Assembly: GCA_022072165.1 (NCBI GenBank)
Contig: JAJVIF010000003.1
Coordinates: 62,001 to 126,000 of the forward strand
DNA: 64,000 bases
Direction: 5' to 3'
Source: a bacterium
Lineage (GTDB): Bacteria > JAJVIF01
The notes below the pieces were generated by a model, which did not search any database, had not been told where the DNA came from, and saw only the letters and a program-made list of their open reading frames with translations. The position numbers were made by a program, and so were the translations under genes. Of the stretch, positions 3,531 through 54,554 are shown piece after piece (the first letter of the stretch is position 1; every line of letters begins with the position of its first letter).

Positions 3531-4014
3531 CCTCCCGGAGGCCGGGTCTTTAGACCCGGACTGTCAGATTGCGGTGCTACGACAGGAAGCCCCCGGCGGC
3601 GGCGGAAAGCCCCCGGTCGCTTCGCGACCACCCCCGCAAGCGGGGGGGGACCCACATCGTCAAATGAGATGCGCTCCCCGGACCCGTGCGGATCGCATCG
3701 CTTTCTCATCAGCGGTAGCGGCGTGGCTTGCTGCGCCGCTTTTACCCGCCAGCATTGTCTCGTCCCAGGTCTAAAGACCTGGTCTCCGATGGCAGCGCAA
3801 GGGCCGCAACCCATCGAAGACGTCCTGCTGACGTGTCCATCGCGATCCGATCGCCAGGCCGGGGGCCTGGCGGACCCACCGACCGGGGGTCGGATCACCG
3901 GGCGACCGGGGGTCGCCCCTCCGAGCTTCCGCGCAATGCCCTCCCCCCCCGCTTGCGGGGGTGGTCGCGCAGCGACCGGGGGCTCGATCGGGGATCGCGC
4001 AGCCGCCGGAGGCT
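3531..4014. repeat. Intergenic hairpin array, cluster A (MITE-like inverted repeat)
   Basis: This gene-free stretch is built from hyphenated palindromes: 3542-3559 (CCGGGTCT-TT-AGACCCGG), 3615-3629, 3631-3646, 3717-3740 (AGCGGCG stem followed by TTTT), 3765-3782 (CCAGGTCT-AA-AGACCTGG) and the three-hairpin element at 3852-3923. It is bounded by a long inverted repeat: 3608-3648 matches the reverse complement of 3944-3984 at 40 of 41 positions, extended imperfectly by 3588-3604 and 4001-4014. The whole 3588-4014 unit could fold back on itself. No transposase is present. The same building blocks recur in clusters C, B and D. Confidence 0.8.
3852..3923 (+). repeat. 72-nt three-hairpin element, copy A
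   Basis: Hairpin 1 is 3852-3860/3864-3872, hairpin 2 is 3879-3884/3888-3893 and hairpin 3 is 3900-3907/3911-3918, each with a GGG loop. Linker ACCCA lies between hairpins 1 and 2, and CTCCG ends the unit. Confidence 0.85.
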
Positions 4015-46810: not shown

Positions 46811-46928
46811 TAGCGAAAATCGACAATCCATCGGAGGGGCGACCCCCGGTCGCCCGGCACCCCGACGCCCCGTCGGTGGGTCCCCGGGCCGCCACAGCCC
46901 GGCACGCACACATCCCCACTTTTCGCTA
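46811..46928. repeat. Hairpin element cluster C with short terminal inverted repeats
   Basis: TAGCGAAAA (46811-46819) and its exact reverse complement TTTTCGCTA (46920-46928) bound a 118-bp unit holding one three-hairpin element. This is the smallest and cleanest copy of the family and looks like a miniature mobile element, though target-site duplication is not evident. It lies between purH and the tRNA-Pro promoter. Confidence 0.7.
46832..46903 (-). repeat. 72-nt three-hairpin element, copy C
   Basis: On the minus strand: hairpin 1 46902-46897/46889-46884, hairpin 2 46876-46871/46867-46862, hairpin 3 46855-46848/46844-46837, with linker ACCCA between 1 and 2. Confidence 0.85.
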
Positions 46929-50403: not shown

Positions 50404-50475
50404 GCCGGGACGGGGCGTCCCGGCACCCACCGACGCGGGCGTCGGGGCACCGGGCGACCGGGGGTCGCCCCTCCG
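50404..50475 (+). repeat. 72-nt three-hairpin element, copy B
   Basis: Hairpin 1 50404-50412/50416-50424, hairpin 2 50430-50436/50439-50445, hairpin 3 50452-50459/50463-50470; linker ACCCA at 50425-50429; CTCCG end. Confidence 0.85.
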
Positions 50476-50694
50476 CCGTGCATCTGGGGTTTTACGCGGA
50501 CCCCAGGTCTTCAGCCCTGGGCGATGGTTGATGTGGCGCGAGGCGGCGCACGCCAGGCGCTGGTTTCCTGGGGGTCGACCTCCAGGTCGACCGGGCGCTC
50601 GACTTCCAAGTCGATGGGTACGGGGACCTCTGTCCCCTGCAGCATGGCAGTGCTGTACGCATATCGTCGTCGCCTCCCAGGTCTAAAGACCTGG
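50404..50694. repeat. Intergenic hairpin array, cluster B
   Basis: This lies in the 577-bp gap between topA and dnaE2. After the three-hairpin element (50404-50475) come 50502-50521 (CCCAGG stem), 50573-50592 (GGTCGACCT-CC-AGGTCGACC), 50599-50614 (TCGACTT-CC-AAGTCGA), 50622-50637 (GGGGAC-CTCT-GTCCCC) and 50677-50694 (CCAGGTCT-AA-AGACCTGG). Several stems close on CT-NN-AG. Cluster D has the same kinds of stem in related order on the other strand; cluster A carries the same 50677-type hairpin. The flanking sequence 50237-50403 shows no gene. Confidence 0.8.
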
Positions 50695-50791
50695 ACTCCG
50701 TGAACGTGGCTTTGTGGTCCTGATGGGGCCATGGGGAGAGATTGGGGAGAGCGAGTGGAGCAGCTGCCTTGTGTCCCCCGTGGGCGTAATA

Positions 50792-50813: not shown

Positions 50814-53800
50814 ATGGCCCCGACCACCACCACCGCCCGATCCGCCAGGATCCTCACCCTCCCCCCGCCGGTCCAGCCGACCCTCCCCCAGTTGCAGGTC
50901 CATTCGCAGTTCTCCCGACGTTTTGGGGCCTCGACGGTCACCGCCCTGGTCCAGGCCGCCTGCGATGCCCAGGTCCCCGCCCTCGCCCTCACCGACCGTA
51001 ACGCCATGCAGGGGGTCCTCCCCTTCCTCCGCGCCTGCCGTGATGCCGGCCTCCCGCCGATCATCGGAGCCGAAGTCGATGACCCGCAGGATGCCCGCCG
51101 ACGCGCCGTCTGCTGGGCCCGGAGCCGGCAGGGCTTCGCCGCCCTCTCCGCCCTGGTGAGCCGTCGCTGCCTCACCCCGGAGACCTTCGACCTCGCCGAC
51201 GAATGTGCCCGCCTCGACCCCACCGAGGTCTGGGCCGGCACCCCGCATCTGGAACTCCTCCTGACTGTCGCGCAACGCCGGCCTCCCACCGGCTGGGTGG
51301 CCCTGCTGATACCCGGATCGCGGCCCGAGGCGGCCGCGACACCGGCCCTGGTCCTGGGACTGGCCCAGCGACTGGGCCTGCTGGTGGCCCTCACCAGCGA
51401 TGCGGTCGCGGCGCGTCCTGGCGACCTGCCCGCCCACCGTCTGCTGCGACGCATCGCGGCCCGGTACAGCGACTGGCGTCCGGAGGAATACGGCCTCACC
51501 GGGACCCGGGACACGGTGATCTGGGACCGGGCGACCGCCGCCCACTGGGCAGGCCGCTATCCCGAGGCCGCCCGTGGGGCGCGCCAGGTCATGGAGGCCA
51601 CCGCCGGCCGGGTCGACCTCACGCGGCAGGGGTGGGTCATGCCCCCCTGGCCCGCCCCCGCAGGGAGCGATGCCGCCACGGAACTCACCGCCCGCGCCCG
51701 GGCCGGGATGCGTCGCCGCTACGGCCCCTTTCCGCCGCCGGCGATTCCGCGACGGCTGGCGTATGAACTCCAGGTCATCGGCGAGCATGGGTACCCCGCC
51801 TACTTCCATGTCGCCACCGACCTGGTGGAGCAGGCGCATCGCTGGGGGCTGGTGACACTGGGTCGGGGGTCCGTGGCCAACAGTCTGGTGGCCTATTGCC
51901 TCGGTCTCACCGAAGTCGATCCCATGCAGCACGACCTCTACTTCGAGCGCTTTCTGAATCCGGCGCGCAAGAGTCCGCCCGACATCGACATCGACTTCTC
52001 CTGGCGGGCCCGGGACCGGATGCTGGACTACCTCTTCGCCACCTACGGGGCGGATCAGGCGGCGATGGTGGGATGTGTCCATACCCTTCATGCCCGGGGG
52101 GCGTATCGCGAGACCGCCCTGGCCCTGGGGCTCCACCCGGATCAGATCGCCCTCTCCAAACGGCTGCCACACACCCGTCGCCCCGCCCTGCAGACCCTGA
52201 AGGAGCGCTATCCCGAAGTGGCGCATGTCCCGCTGGAGGATGCCCCGGTGGCGGAGGCCCTGCAGCTGGCGGAAGCGCTGGTGGGGGTCCCGCTGTCGGC
52301 GGGGATGCACCCCTGCGGCATCGTGCTGGCCCCCCGTCCCCTCACCGCCTATGGCCCGCTGGACCGCTGCCACAAGGGGTACCAGATGACGCACTTCGAC
52401 ATGTTCGGGGTGGAGGAAATGGGACTGGTGAAGCTGGATGTCCTGGCGACCCGGGGGCTGGGGACGGTGGATACGGTCCGGGAGGTCCTCCGGGAGCGGG
52501 GGGAGCCCGATCCCCTGGAGGCTCCCTTCGCGCAGTATGCCGGCCATCCTGCGGCCCGACGCCTCCTGCGGCAGGGCCAGAGCCTGGGCTGCTTCTACAC
52601 CGAATCCCCGGCGATGCTCAGCCTCAACCGGAAGATCCGCTGCGCGTCGTATGAGCATCTCATCGCCACCAGTTCCGTCATCCGCCCCGGAGTCGCCGAG
52701 AGCGGCATGATGGACGAGTACATCGGCCGGCATCTGGGACAAAAGCCGATCGCCCATCTGCATCCCTTGCTGGGGGAGCTGCTGCGGGAAACCCACGGGG
52801 TCATGGTCTATCAGGAAGATGTCCTCAAGGTGGCCCATCACTTTGGGGGGATGACACTGGCGGAAGCGGACCTCCTGCGACGCGCCATGAGCGGGAAGGA
52901 GCGGAGCCCCATCGCGATGGCCCCGGTGGAGGCCCGGTTCCTCGCTGCCGCCACCAGTCGCGGGATTCCGCAGGCCCATGCCGCGGAGGTCTGGCGACAG
53001 ATCGCGTCGTTCGCCGGCTACGCCTTCTGCAAGGCCCACTCCGCCGCCTTCGCCCGGCTCTCCATGCAGACCTGCCGCCTGAAGGCCGATGCCACCGCTC
53101 CCTTTATGGCGGCGGTCCTCAGCAATGAGGGGGGGTACTACGCCCCGCATGTCTATCTGGAGGAAGCCCGCCGCTGGGGGCTGCGCATCAGTGGTCCCGA
53201 TGTCAACGGCTCGCAGGCGGAGTACTGGGGCTACGGCACCCTGTTGCGGGTCGGCCTCATGGCGATCCGGAATCTCCAGCACGACAGCATCGCGCGGATC
53301 CTCACCGCCCGGGCCGGACGCCCCTTTAGCGACATGGTGGACTTCCTCCACCGGACCCGCACCGGTCCCGGGGGCCTCGACCCCTCGCAGGTGGAACTCC
53401 TCATCGTCGCCGGGGCCTGCGACAGCCTCGCTCCCACCCGCCCGGAGCAACTCCGGCTCCTGCTGACCCATGTGAAGCAGTGCCAGGCGCTCCGGGAGCG
53501 CACCACCCTGCCCCTCTTCCCGGACCGTGCGGAGACCGCTGACAACGCACCGGGCGCGTCGCACCGGCGCGACTGGTCCCAGGATGACAAGTACGCCCGG
53601 CAGCTGGAACTCCTGGGACTGCTGCCGGCCATGCACCCCCTGACCTGGCTCGGCCCCCGGCTGCCGCCCCTGGCGGAGGGGCCGCCCCTGATCGCGGCCC
53701 GGGATCTGGCGCGCTATCGCGGACAGCGGGTACGCCTGCGGGGACTCGGGGTCACCCGCAAGCTGGTGACGACCCGGAATGGCCGGGATCGCATGGCCTT

Positions 53801-54146
53801 TCTGAGCCTCGAGGATCCGACCGCCATCGCCGAGGTAACCATCTTTCCCGCCGCCTACCGGCGCTGTGCCGCCGCCCTCCAGGGCTGGGGGCCCTATGTG
53901 GTGACTGGTCTCGTGGACGCACAGTTTGGGGTCGCGAGTCTGACCGCCCATCAGGTGGAGCGGGTGGAGGTCCCGGCGAGTGTGCAGTTACCGCAGGGCG
54001 TGACCGAACGCTTCGGCGAGTTTGGGGCGAGCGGGATCATTCCGGGGCAGGGGACCGCGGTGATTCCAGGGCGTGCGGGGCGTCAGGCCCCACCGGTCGC
54101 GACCCCGGTCGCACCGTCGGAAGGCATCCGGCGTCAGCAGGCGTAA
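50814..54146 (+). CDS. dnaE2: Error-prone DNA polymerase III alpha subunit (DnaE2/ImuC type)
   Basis: A 1110-residue C-family polymerase, the length of DnaE2 rather than DnaE1. The N-terminal PHP domain (~25-230) is degenerate: LQVHSQFSRRFGAST in place of the usual HxHSxxS opening. The palm has GRGSVANSLVAYCLGLTEVDP and the catalytic acid motif PDIDIDF (389-395), then GMHPCGIVLAP, THFDMFGVEEMGLVKLDVLATRGL and SGKERSPIAMAPVEARFLAAA. The C-terminal OB fold (~960-1060) has RVRLRGLGVTRKLVTTRNGRDRMAFLSLEDPT. DnaE2 performs mutagenic lesion bypass with ImuA/ImuB, which are not in this window. A LexA-like box overlaps the promoter. No ribosome site is evident. The gene is flanked on both sides by hairpin repeat clusters. 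Confidence 0.88.
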   Translation: MAPTTTTARSARILTLPPPVQPTLPQLQVHSQFSRRFGASTVTALVQAACDAQVPALALTDRNAMQGVLPFLRACRDAGLPPIIGAEVDDPQDARRRAVCWARSRQGFAALSALVSRRCLTPETFDLADECARLDPTEVWAGTPHLELLLTVAQRRPPTGWVALLIPGSRPEAAATPALVLGLAQRLGLLVALTSDAVAARPGDLPAHRLLRRIAARYSDWRPEEYGLTGTRDTVIWDRATAAHWAGRYPEAARGARQVMEATAGRVDLTRQGWVMPPWPAPAGSDAATELTARARAGMRRRYGPFPPPAIPRRLAYELQVIGEHGYPAYFHVATDLVEQAHRWGLVTLGRGSVANSLVAYCLGLTEVDPMQHDLYFERFLNPARKSPPDIDIDFSWRARDRMLDYLFATYGADQAAMVGCVHTLHARGAYRETALALGLHPDQIALSKRLPHTRRPALQTLKERYPEVAHVPLEDAPVAEALQLAEALVGVPLSAGMHPCGIVLAPRPLTAYGPLDRCHKGYQMTHFDMFGVEEMGLVKLDVLATRGLGTVDTVREVLRERGEPDPLEAPFAQYAGHPAARRLLRQGQSLGCFYTESPAMLSLNRKIRCASYEHLIATSSVIRPGVAESGMMDEYIGRHLGQKPIAHLHPLLGELLRETHGVMVYQEDVLKVAHHFGGMTLAEADLLRRAMSGKERSPIAMAPVEARFLAAATSRGIPQAHAAEVWRQIASFAGYAFCKAHSAAFARLSMQTCRLKADATAPFMAAVLSNEGGYYAPHVYLEEARRWGLRISGPDVNGSQAEYWGYGTLLRVGLMAIRNLQHDSIARILTARAGRPFSDMVDFLHRTRTGPGGLDPSQVELLIVAGACDSLAPTRPEQLRLLLTHVKQCQALRERTTLPLFPDRAETADNAPGASHRRDWSQDDKYARQLELLGLLPAMHPLTWLGPRLPPLAEGPPLIAARDLARYRGQRVRLRGLGVTRKLVTTRNGRDRMAFLSLEDPTAIAEVTIFPAAYRRCAAALQGWGPYVVTGLVDAQFGVASLTAHQVERVEVPASVQLPQGVTERFGEFGASGIIPGQGTAVIPGRAGRQAPPVATPVAPSEGIRRQQA

Positions 54147-54193: not shown

Positions 54194-54517
54194 CCGGGGG
54201 CTGAAGTCCCCGGACCCATCGACCTGGAGGTCGACATCCCGGTCGACCCGGAGGTCGACCCTCCAGCGCGTGTGGTGCTACGGGAAAGAGAGGGGCGACG
54301 AAGAGTGGATGCTGCCAAGAGTCGGAGGGGCGACCCCCGGTCGCCCGGTGATCCGGCGCCTGCGCCGGTGGGTACGCCAGGCCCCCGGCCTGGCACGAAA
54401 GGACTCTCACGGAATGCAAACATGAGTCGCCGATGGATTGCGGCGCAGCAAGCCACGCCGCTACGCCATGAATCCACACGCTGCCGGGACGGGGCGTCCC
54501 GGGTCTGAAGACCTGGG
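54194..54517. repeat. Intergenic hairpin array, cluster D
   Basis: This fills the gap after dnaE2. Stems are 54194-54213 (CCGGGG-GCTGAAGT-CCCCGG), 54219-54234 (TCGACCT-GG-AGGTCGA), 54241-54260 (two self-palindromic GGTCGACC units), the three-hairpin element 54323-54394, 54440-54462 (a 23-nt sequence identical in reverse complement to 3717-3739 of cluster A), 54484-54502 (the same hairpin as hairpin 1 of copy B) and 54498-54517 (CCCGGGTCT-GA-AGACCTGGG). No protein gene is visible. Confidence 0.8.
54323..54394 (-). repeat. 72-nt three-hairpin element, copy D
   Basis: On the minus strand: hairpin 1 54394-54387/54383-54376, hairpin 2 54368-54362/54359-54353, hairpin 3 54346-54339/54335-54328; linker ACCCA between 1 and 2. 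Confidence 0.85.
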
Positions 54518-54554
54518 CTCCGGACGATGGTCGAAACGTAAGGCGAAAAGGAGC

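Follow-up and report, generated by a model that had tools for sequence, protein, structure and literature searches.

The repeat units of the window

The window analysed here is a stretch of 64,000 nucleotides, C3:62001-126000, from a bacterial genome of 3.26 Mb in four contigs (C1-C4). Its palindromic repeats, and the gene that two pairs of them flank, are as follows.

3715-3739, + strand, and 54440-54464, - strand: hairpin repeat with a GTAG foot, GTAGCGGCGTGGCTTGCTGCGCCGC
3761-3787, 50673-50699 and 54495-54521, all - strand: single-hairpin GGAG repeat, GGAG-CCCAGGTCTTCAGACCTGGG
3852-3923, + strand: three-hairpin element; hairpin 1 CGCCAGGCC/GGCCTGGCG, hairpin 2 CCGACC/GGTCGG
46832-46903, - strand: three-hairpin element, with purH on one side and a tRNA gene on the other
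50404-50475, + strand: three-hairpin element; hairpin 1 GCCGGGACG/CGTCCCGGC, hairpin 2 CCGACG/CGTCGG, hairpin 3 GGGCGACC/GGTCGCCC
50568-50640, - strand: divergent copy of the TCGACC subfamily (covariance model, E 8.5e-4); three hairpins, ACCCA linker, GGGG at the foot position
50814-54146, + strand: DNA polymerase III alpha-type gene
54194-54265, + strand: divergent copy of the TCGACC subfamily (covariance model, E 1.2e-4); three hairpins, ACCCA linker, GGAG foot
54323-54394, - strand: three-hairpin element; hairpin 1 GCCAGGCC/GGCCTGGC, hairpin 2 CCGGCG/CGCCGG
54495-54521, - strand, already listed above: the single-hairpin GGAG-foot repeat, GGAG-CCCAGGTCTTCAGACCCGGG, is fused here directly to a hairpin of the hairpin 1 type, GCCGGGACGGGGCGTCCCGG

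Four of these elements had been reported by a sequence-only reading of the window, and all four are present at 72 nt each, on the strands and with the stems it gave; hairpin 3 with the following CTCCG and the ACCCA linker are shared among them as it described. The constant length that it stressed holds for these four and is common elsewhere, but genome-wide the units run from 71 to 74 nt and include deleted and hybrid copies. All four are placed in the gaps separating recognised genes or long ORFs, intergenic position having been checked for window copies near recognised genes. The two divergent copies, 50568-50640 (-) and 54194-54265 (+), had been missed, being too diverged to be found by eye.

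The strand that carries the foot gives the unit its natural reading direction. For the copy at 50404-50475 (+), the GGAG foot is on the - strand and reads CTCC on the + strand. Every copy, read on its foot strand, runs GGAG, hairpin 3, linker, hairpin 2, TGGGT, hairpin 1, and the unit can be written CGGAG / GGGCGACC-CCC-GGTCGCCC / GGTGCC / CCGACG-CCCG-CGTCGG / TGGGT / GCCGGGACG-CCC-CGTCCCGGC. It consists of a foot, three hairpins with loops mostly of 3-4 nt, and two linkers, with GGAG immediately 5' of hairpin 3 in nearly all copies. Folded as single-stranded DNA, six of six window units form three separate hairpins, better than shuffled sequence in most cases (z from -1.4 to -3.7). The copy at 46832-46903 (-), whose hairpin 1 has a loop of 7 nt, shows the weakest fold of the four first reported.

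Census, covariation and compound arrangements

The core formed by hairpin 3 and CTCCG, allowing up to three mismatches, occurs four times in the window and in none of the shuffles; genome-wide it is present 38 times, and the reversed pattern is absent. The genome-wide covariance-model search that the sequence-only reading had proposed, with a model built from 27 copies, gave at least 45 matches at E<=0.0031, extending the family beyond the original four; 150 of 5634 first-look candidates were scored, and 45 may be a lower bound. Two further matches are doubtful. With 45 good matches, the family shows the dispersed, many-copy distribution of REP sequences. Scanned by exact pattern, GTDB genome contigs and IMG/VR contained no core of hairpin 3 and foot outside the genome of the window, and 58 other genomes yielded none either. 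This confinement fits species-specific REPs and provides no orthologous empty sites for comparison.

Compensatory change in the stems, also claimed from the first four copies, is real: the stems covary around constant feet and linkers. Over all copies, pairing holds in 93.2% of cells, compared to 88.2 +/- 0.6 in shuffled data. Nine pairs changed on both sides, compared to 3.7 +/- 1.0 (0 of 500 shuffles), where the copies are paralogues and shuffle counts are not to be read as probabilities. Sliding the partners by 1-3 columns lowers pairing to 37-49%, and the best perfect stems of the observed lengths are found in 1-3% of shuffled segments. Most of the signal comes from hairpins 1 and 2, whose pairing despite sequence change is plain by eye. 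Hairpin 1 has many stem types, hairpin 2 four, and hairpin 3, nearly invariant, essentially two, related by the one compensatory change from GACC/GGTC to GAGC/GCTC. The end pairs of hairpin 1 are, in some copies, T-G on the CTCC strand and A-C on the GGAG strand. Structure was assigned by hand; RNAalifold on a MAFFT alignment mis-paired hairpin 1.

The covariance model also detects units in which the layout is shared and the stems are unrelated. Those of the TCGACC type read GGAG-GGTCGACC.. / GTCGACC-TCC-AGGTCGA / TGGGT / GGGGACT-TCA-GCCCC (54194-54265 in the window; C3:17442; C3:112568), and a shorter two-hairpin version of this type, GGTGGGTCGACCTCCAGGTCGATGGGTCGGGGGACTTCAGTCCCC, is common. 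A further type, at C3:204275, 204485 and 197554, has a third hairpin of the GGGCGAGG..CCTCGCCC type, a second of GCGACC..GGTCGC and a first of the GCCGACG..CGTCGGC type. What the subfamilies have in common is the foot region, the linker of ACCCA/TGGGT type and the three-hairpin layout; the stems differ.

Copies pair in a fixed orientation. A TCGACC-type unit lies within 200 nt on the foot side of 16 of 30 dispersed copies, always inverted so that the feet face each other, and on the side away from the foot in 0 of 30. Inversion of two REPs as a doublet, which characterises REPINs and BIMEs, is thus seen in these foot-to-foot heterodoublets as well as in the array at the transposase gene described below. 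Both kinds of unit take part in the two window doublets, 50404-50475 with 50568-50640 and 54194-54265 with 54323-54394, which flank the DNA polymerase III alpha-type gene.

The single-hairpin GGAG repeat has at least 37 copies in the DNA sampled, and hybrids between it and three-hairpin units exist. At C3:181850 it takes the place of the first hairpin, and near window position 54505 a hairpin 1 is joined to it. The GTAG-foot repeat, which is found elsewhere in C3 as well, resembles a classical REP; it is either an orphan REP family or served by the one RAYT of this genome, which has no second. Mosaic intergenic repeats of several hundred bases occur at C3:181570-181960, C3:244080-244680 and C3:246600-247000, in the order GTAG repeat, three-hairpin unit, spacer, TCGACC unit, GGAG repeat. 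Some copies of the three-hairpin unit sit inside such larger mosaics and were probably copied along with them.

The RAYT gene and its relatives

A RAYT-type transposase, the presence of which the earlier reading had suggested checking, is encoded in this genome and is embedded in copies of the element. One Y1_Tnp gene was found in the genome, and no second one came up when its own protein served as the query. The gene, C2:389138-389773 without the stop codon (L032:5138-5776), lies downstream of groEL and encodes 212 aa. Its product scores 90.4 bits with the NCBIfam model REP_Tyr_transpos (NF047646; cut-off 80), matches Pfam Y1_Tnp and the TnpAREP structure 4ER8, and has the motifs NHVH (HUH), WQ and YIEMNP, the last with the catalytic tyrosine. 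It combines the HUH motif and catalytic tyrosine, the profile score above cut-off and the REP flanks expected of the RAYT family. The residues W, Q and R that are reported to contact the foot in the E. coli enzyme appear conserved, as mapped by motif order; the changes of E to D and of H to R are also found in other subclasses.

At least eight readable copies cluster at C2:388120-389860. To the left of the gene is an array, partly N, of tandem doublets of the form [GGAG-h3'-h2'-h1']-spacer-[h1-h2-h3-CTCC] with a period of 230 bp. To the right, a single outward-facing copy starts 10 nt past the stop codon. Both flanking ends have all three hairpins. This arrangement is the one named REPtron (PMC6006769).

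The closest RAYTs that were found in named genomes belong to an Azospirillaceae MAG (46% identity) and to three Verrucomicrobia MAGs (36-40%). GGAG-foot hairpins border all four, for example GCGCCGGCTGGAAGCCGGCGC-TCCG and GGGCGGCAAGATGCCGCCC-CTCC. A tree of 34 RAYTs places these four, the RAYT of the present genome and L106, which has a GGGAG foot, in a clade of seven with moderate support (86/68); all six of the RAYTs in that clade with a readable foot have GGAG or GGGAG. The sister row has GTAA. The clade is not alone in having such a foot, since GGAG-like ones occur at two distant RAYTs as well. The genome of the nearest relative (L126, JANQJV01, Azospirillaceae MAG PL25a_bin.129) contains at least 60 matches to a two-hairpin GGAG unit of about 49 nt, and probably more, as 40 of 377 candidates were scored; many form inverted pairs about 64 bp apart. 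Multi-hairpin units are therefore not confined to the genome of the window. Many of the Azospirillaceae units lie at contig ends and seem to break the assembly.

Interpretation and known systems

REPs as described have one hairpin behind a GT[AG]G foot, measure 21-65 nt, often form inverted doublets and are served by one RAYT per REP type (PMC6006769, PMC3733652, PMC2817692). Recorded variation of the foot affects positions 2-3 (GYAG, GYRG, GTRG, GTMG; PMC3733652), and recorded departures in structure include bulged stems, double feet and the atypical structures of subclass 2.6 and class 3 (PMC6006769). Biochemical tests cover the E. coli, Stenotrophomonas and Marinomonas enzymes with one GTAG-foot hairpin; the E. 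coli enzyme tolerated no change in GTAG, and foot bases are proposed to recognise the cleavage dinucleotide, with A3 and G4 of GTAG reading CT (PMC8266576).

We consider it highly probable that the family is a non-autonomous mobile repeat of REP type, in which a GGAG foot is followed by three hairpins in tandem, and that the RAYT of its own genome moves it. The sequence observations behind this are the structure of the unit and its covariation, the GGAG foot, the unique RAYT within the cluster, the inverted doublets and the recurrence of the foot at related RAYTs; the subfamilies that keep the layout with other stems, and the prominence of CTCC beside strong hairpins in C3, also favour it. From them we infer that the RAYT moves these copies by single-strand cleavage beside the unit, and that it may need hairpins 1 and 2. 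The strand with GGAG (the - strand for 50404-50475), when exposed as single-stranded DNA, would fold into GGAG, hairpin 3, linker, hairpin 2, TGGGT and hairpin 1. The RAYT, a single-strand transposase of the HUH tyrosine type, would read the foot and first hairpin, cut beside the unit and join it elsewhere. Single copies, inverted doublets (REPINs), the tandem doublet array by the RAYT gene and hybrid units would be the products, with selection for recognition preserving foot, linkers and pairing while stem sequences drift with compensation. Cleavage at CT is predicted, because GGAG retains A3 and G4.

Several observations count against this explanation. Comparison of flanks within the genome gave no clean empty site, only junctions inside larger mosaic repeats, and the relatives are too distant to help. 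The flanks of the unit show no consensus target and no CT cleavage position, only a preference for purine after CTCCG. The GGAG foot itself, the moderate support for the clade, copying within mosaics and the T-G/A-C end pairs of hairpin 1 belong on the same side.

The T-G pairs in particular would be tolerable in RNA on the CTCC strand, and the strong, stable and covarying stems, the position of the first four copies between genes or long ORFs, and the capacity of REPs generally to stabilise RNA or serve as attenuators (PMC3733652) could all be accommodated by a structured RNA element, a terminator or an mRNA stability or processing signal, selected for its RNA fold and only incidentally close to a RAYT. 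We regard this as very unlikely. No Rfam 15 family matches the copies above its gathering score, the one match in the window being a tRNA, and the hairpins are not followed by a run of T. Inverted foot-to-foot doublets, a unique RAYT within the densest cluster and the same foot at related RAYTs also speak against it. Among the possibilities raised by the sequence-only reading, the REP/MITE relative is correct; the structured ncRNA and the processing or stability element are unsupported, given the missing Rfam match, the inverted doublets and the link to a DNA transposase. Short length, palindromic form and high copy number would also suit MITE-like derivatives or relics of a DDE-type transposon that are not RAYT substrates, but single copies have no terminal inverted repeat, no target-site duplication was seen and the associated transposase is of the Y1/HUH type; we give this explanation hardly any weight.

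Which part of the unit is mobile is a question within the RAYT interpretation rather than an addition to it. Hairpin 3 has the geometry of a short REP, with a foot, a perfect 8-bp stem and a 3-nt loop. A single-hairpin GGAG repeat exists in the same genome, and the hybrids near 54505 and at C3:181850 show hairpin 1 fused elsewhere or replaced. It is conceivable, though less likely than not, that hairpin 3 and its foot move alone, hairpins 1 and 2 being independent palindromes fixed alongside by chance or founder copying. Against this, hairpins 1 and 2 remain paired as their sequences change, subfamilies whose stems are unrelated retain the three-hairpin order and the TGGGT linker, both ends beside the RAYT gene carry the full set of three, and the nearest relative of the RAYT accompanies a many-copy unit of two hairpins.

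The family is thus well supported as a REP/REPIN with its RAYT, structurally unusual and not a new ncRNA. It resembles REP/REPIN/BIME systems in its tetranucleotide foot 5' of a hairpin, its many dispersed copies, its inverted doublets, its stems that vary with pairing kept, and its single RAYT gene flanked by inverted repeats. It differs in having three hairpins over 72 nt rather than one over 21-65 nt (PMC6006769), in a copy number of about 45, below that of many REP families, and in a GGAG foot in place of GT[AG]G; lacking the canonical GTAG or GTGG, it is a variant and not a canonical member. The earlier statement that no named family has such a layout stands for Rfam and the open-access main texts of REP papers, but the kind of system, foot, hairpin and RAYT together, is well known. 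The letters GGAG do not begin a word in PMC2817692, PMC3733652 or PMC6006769, and no description of REP units with two or three hairpins was found in a search of open-access main texts.

Other known structures share single features. In TnpAREP subclass 2.6 and class 3, a Y1 transposase is bordered by structures other than GT[AG]G that also recur elsewhere in the genome (PMC6006769), but these are weak or have a CnGA foot, whereas the present stems are strong and GC-rich behind GGAG, and the motifs NHVH, WQ and YIEMNP do not match either group. The "double foot" and "hairpin-bulge-hairpin" REPs of subclasses 2.4 and 2.2 (PMC6006769) also go beyond a simple hairpin, but each consists of one stem that is bulged or has two feet, in place of three separate hairpins with one foot. 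The ends (LE/RE) of IS200/IS605 elements with TnpA likewise place a Y1 HUH transposase between subterminal hairpins with guide tetranucleotides; here there is one transposase copy, with hairpin units dispersed without the gene and no set of copies in which gene and ends moved together.

We propose, with slightly less than even confidence, that the GGAG-foot clade of RAYTs gave up single-hairpin REPs and came to depend on substrates with several hairpins (the Azospirillaceae MAG having two, the present genome three), the fixed linkers belonging to the recognition signal. REPs of this sort, read as hairpin arrays by the transposase or by several copies of it, would constitute a new structural class. 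The choice and spread of REPs by RAYTs are only partly understood, and a RAYT lineage with another foot and two or three hairpins offers natural variants with which to probe the parts that are read, the formation of inverted doublets and the origin of REP types. Scans limited to GT[AG]G and one hairpin miss whole families.

All palindromic repeat families described here (three-hairpin, GTAG-foot, single-hairpin GGAG and TCGACC) cluster in C3 and C4, in C2 past about 380 kb and in the terminal 20-80 kb of C1, with almost none in samples from the rest of C1 (19 of 20 kb each). CTCC is not among the common flanks of strong hairpins in C1 and is the commonest in C3 (29 cases). A dnaA-like gene is located at C1:1633809.
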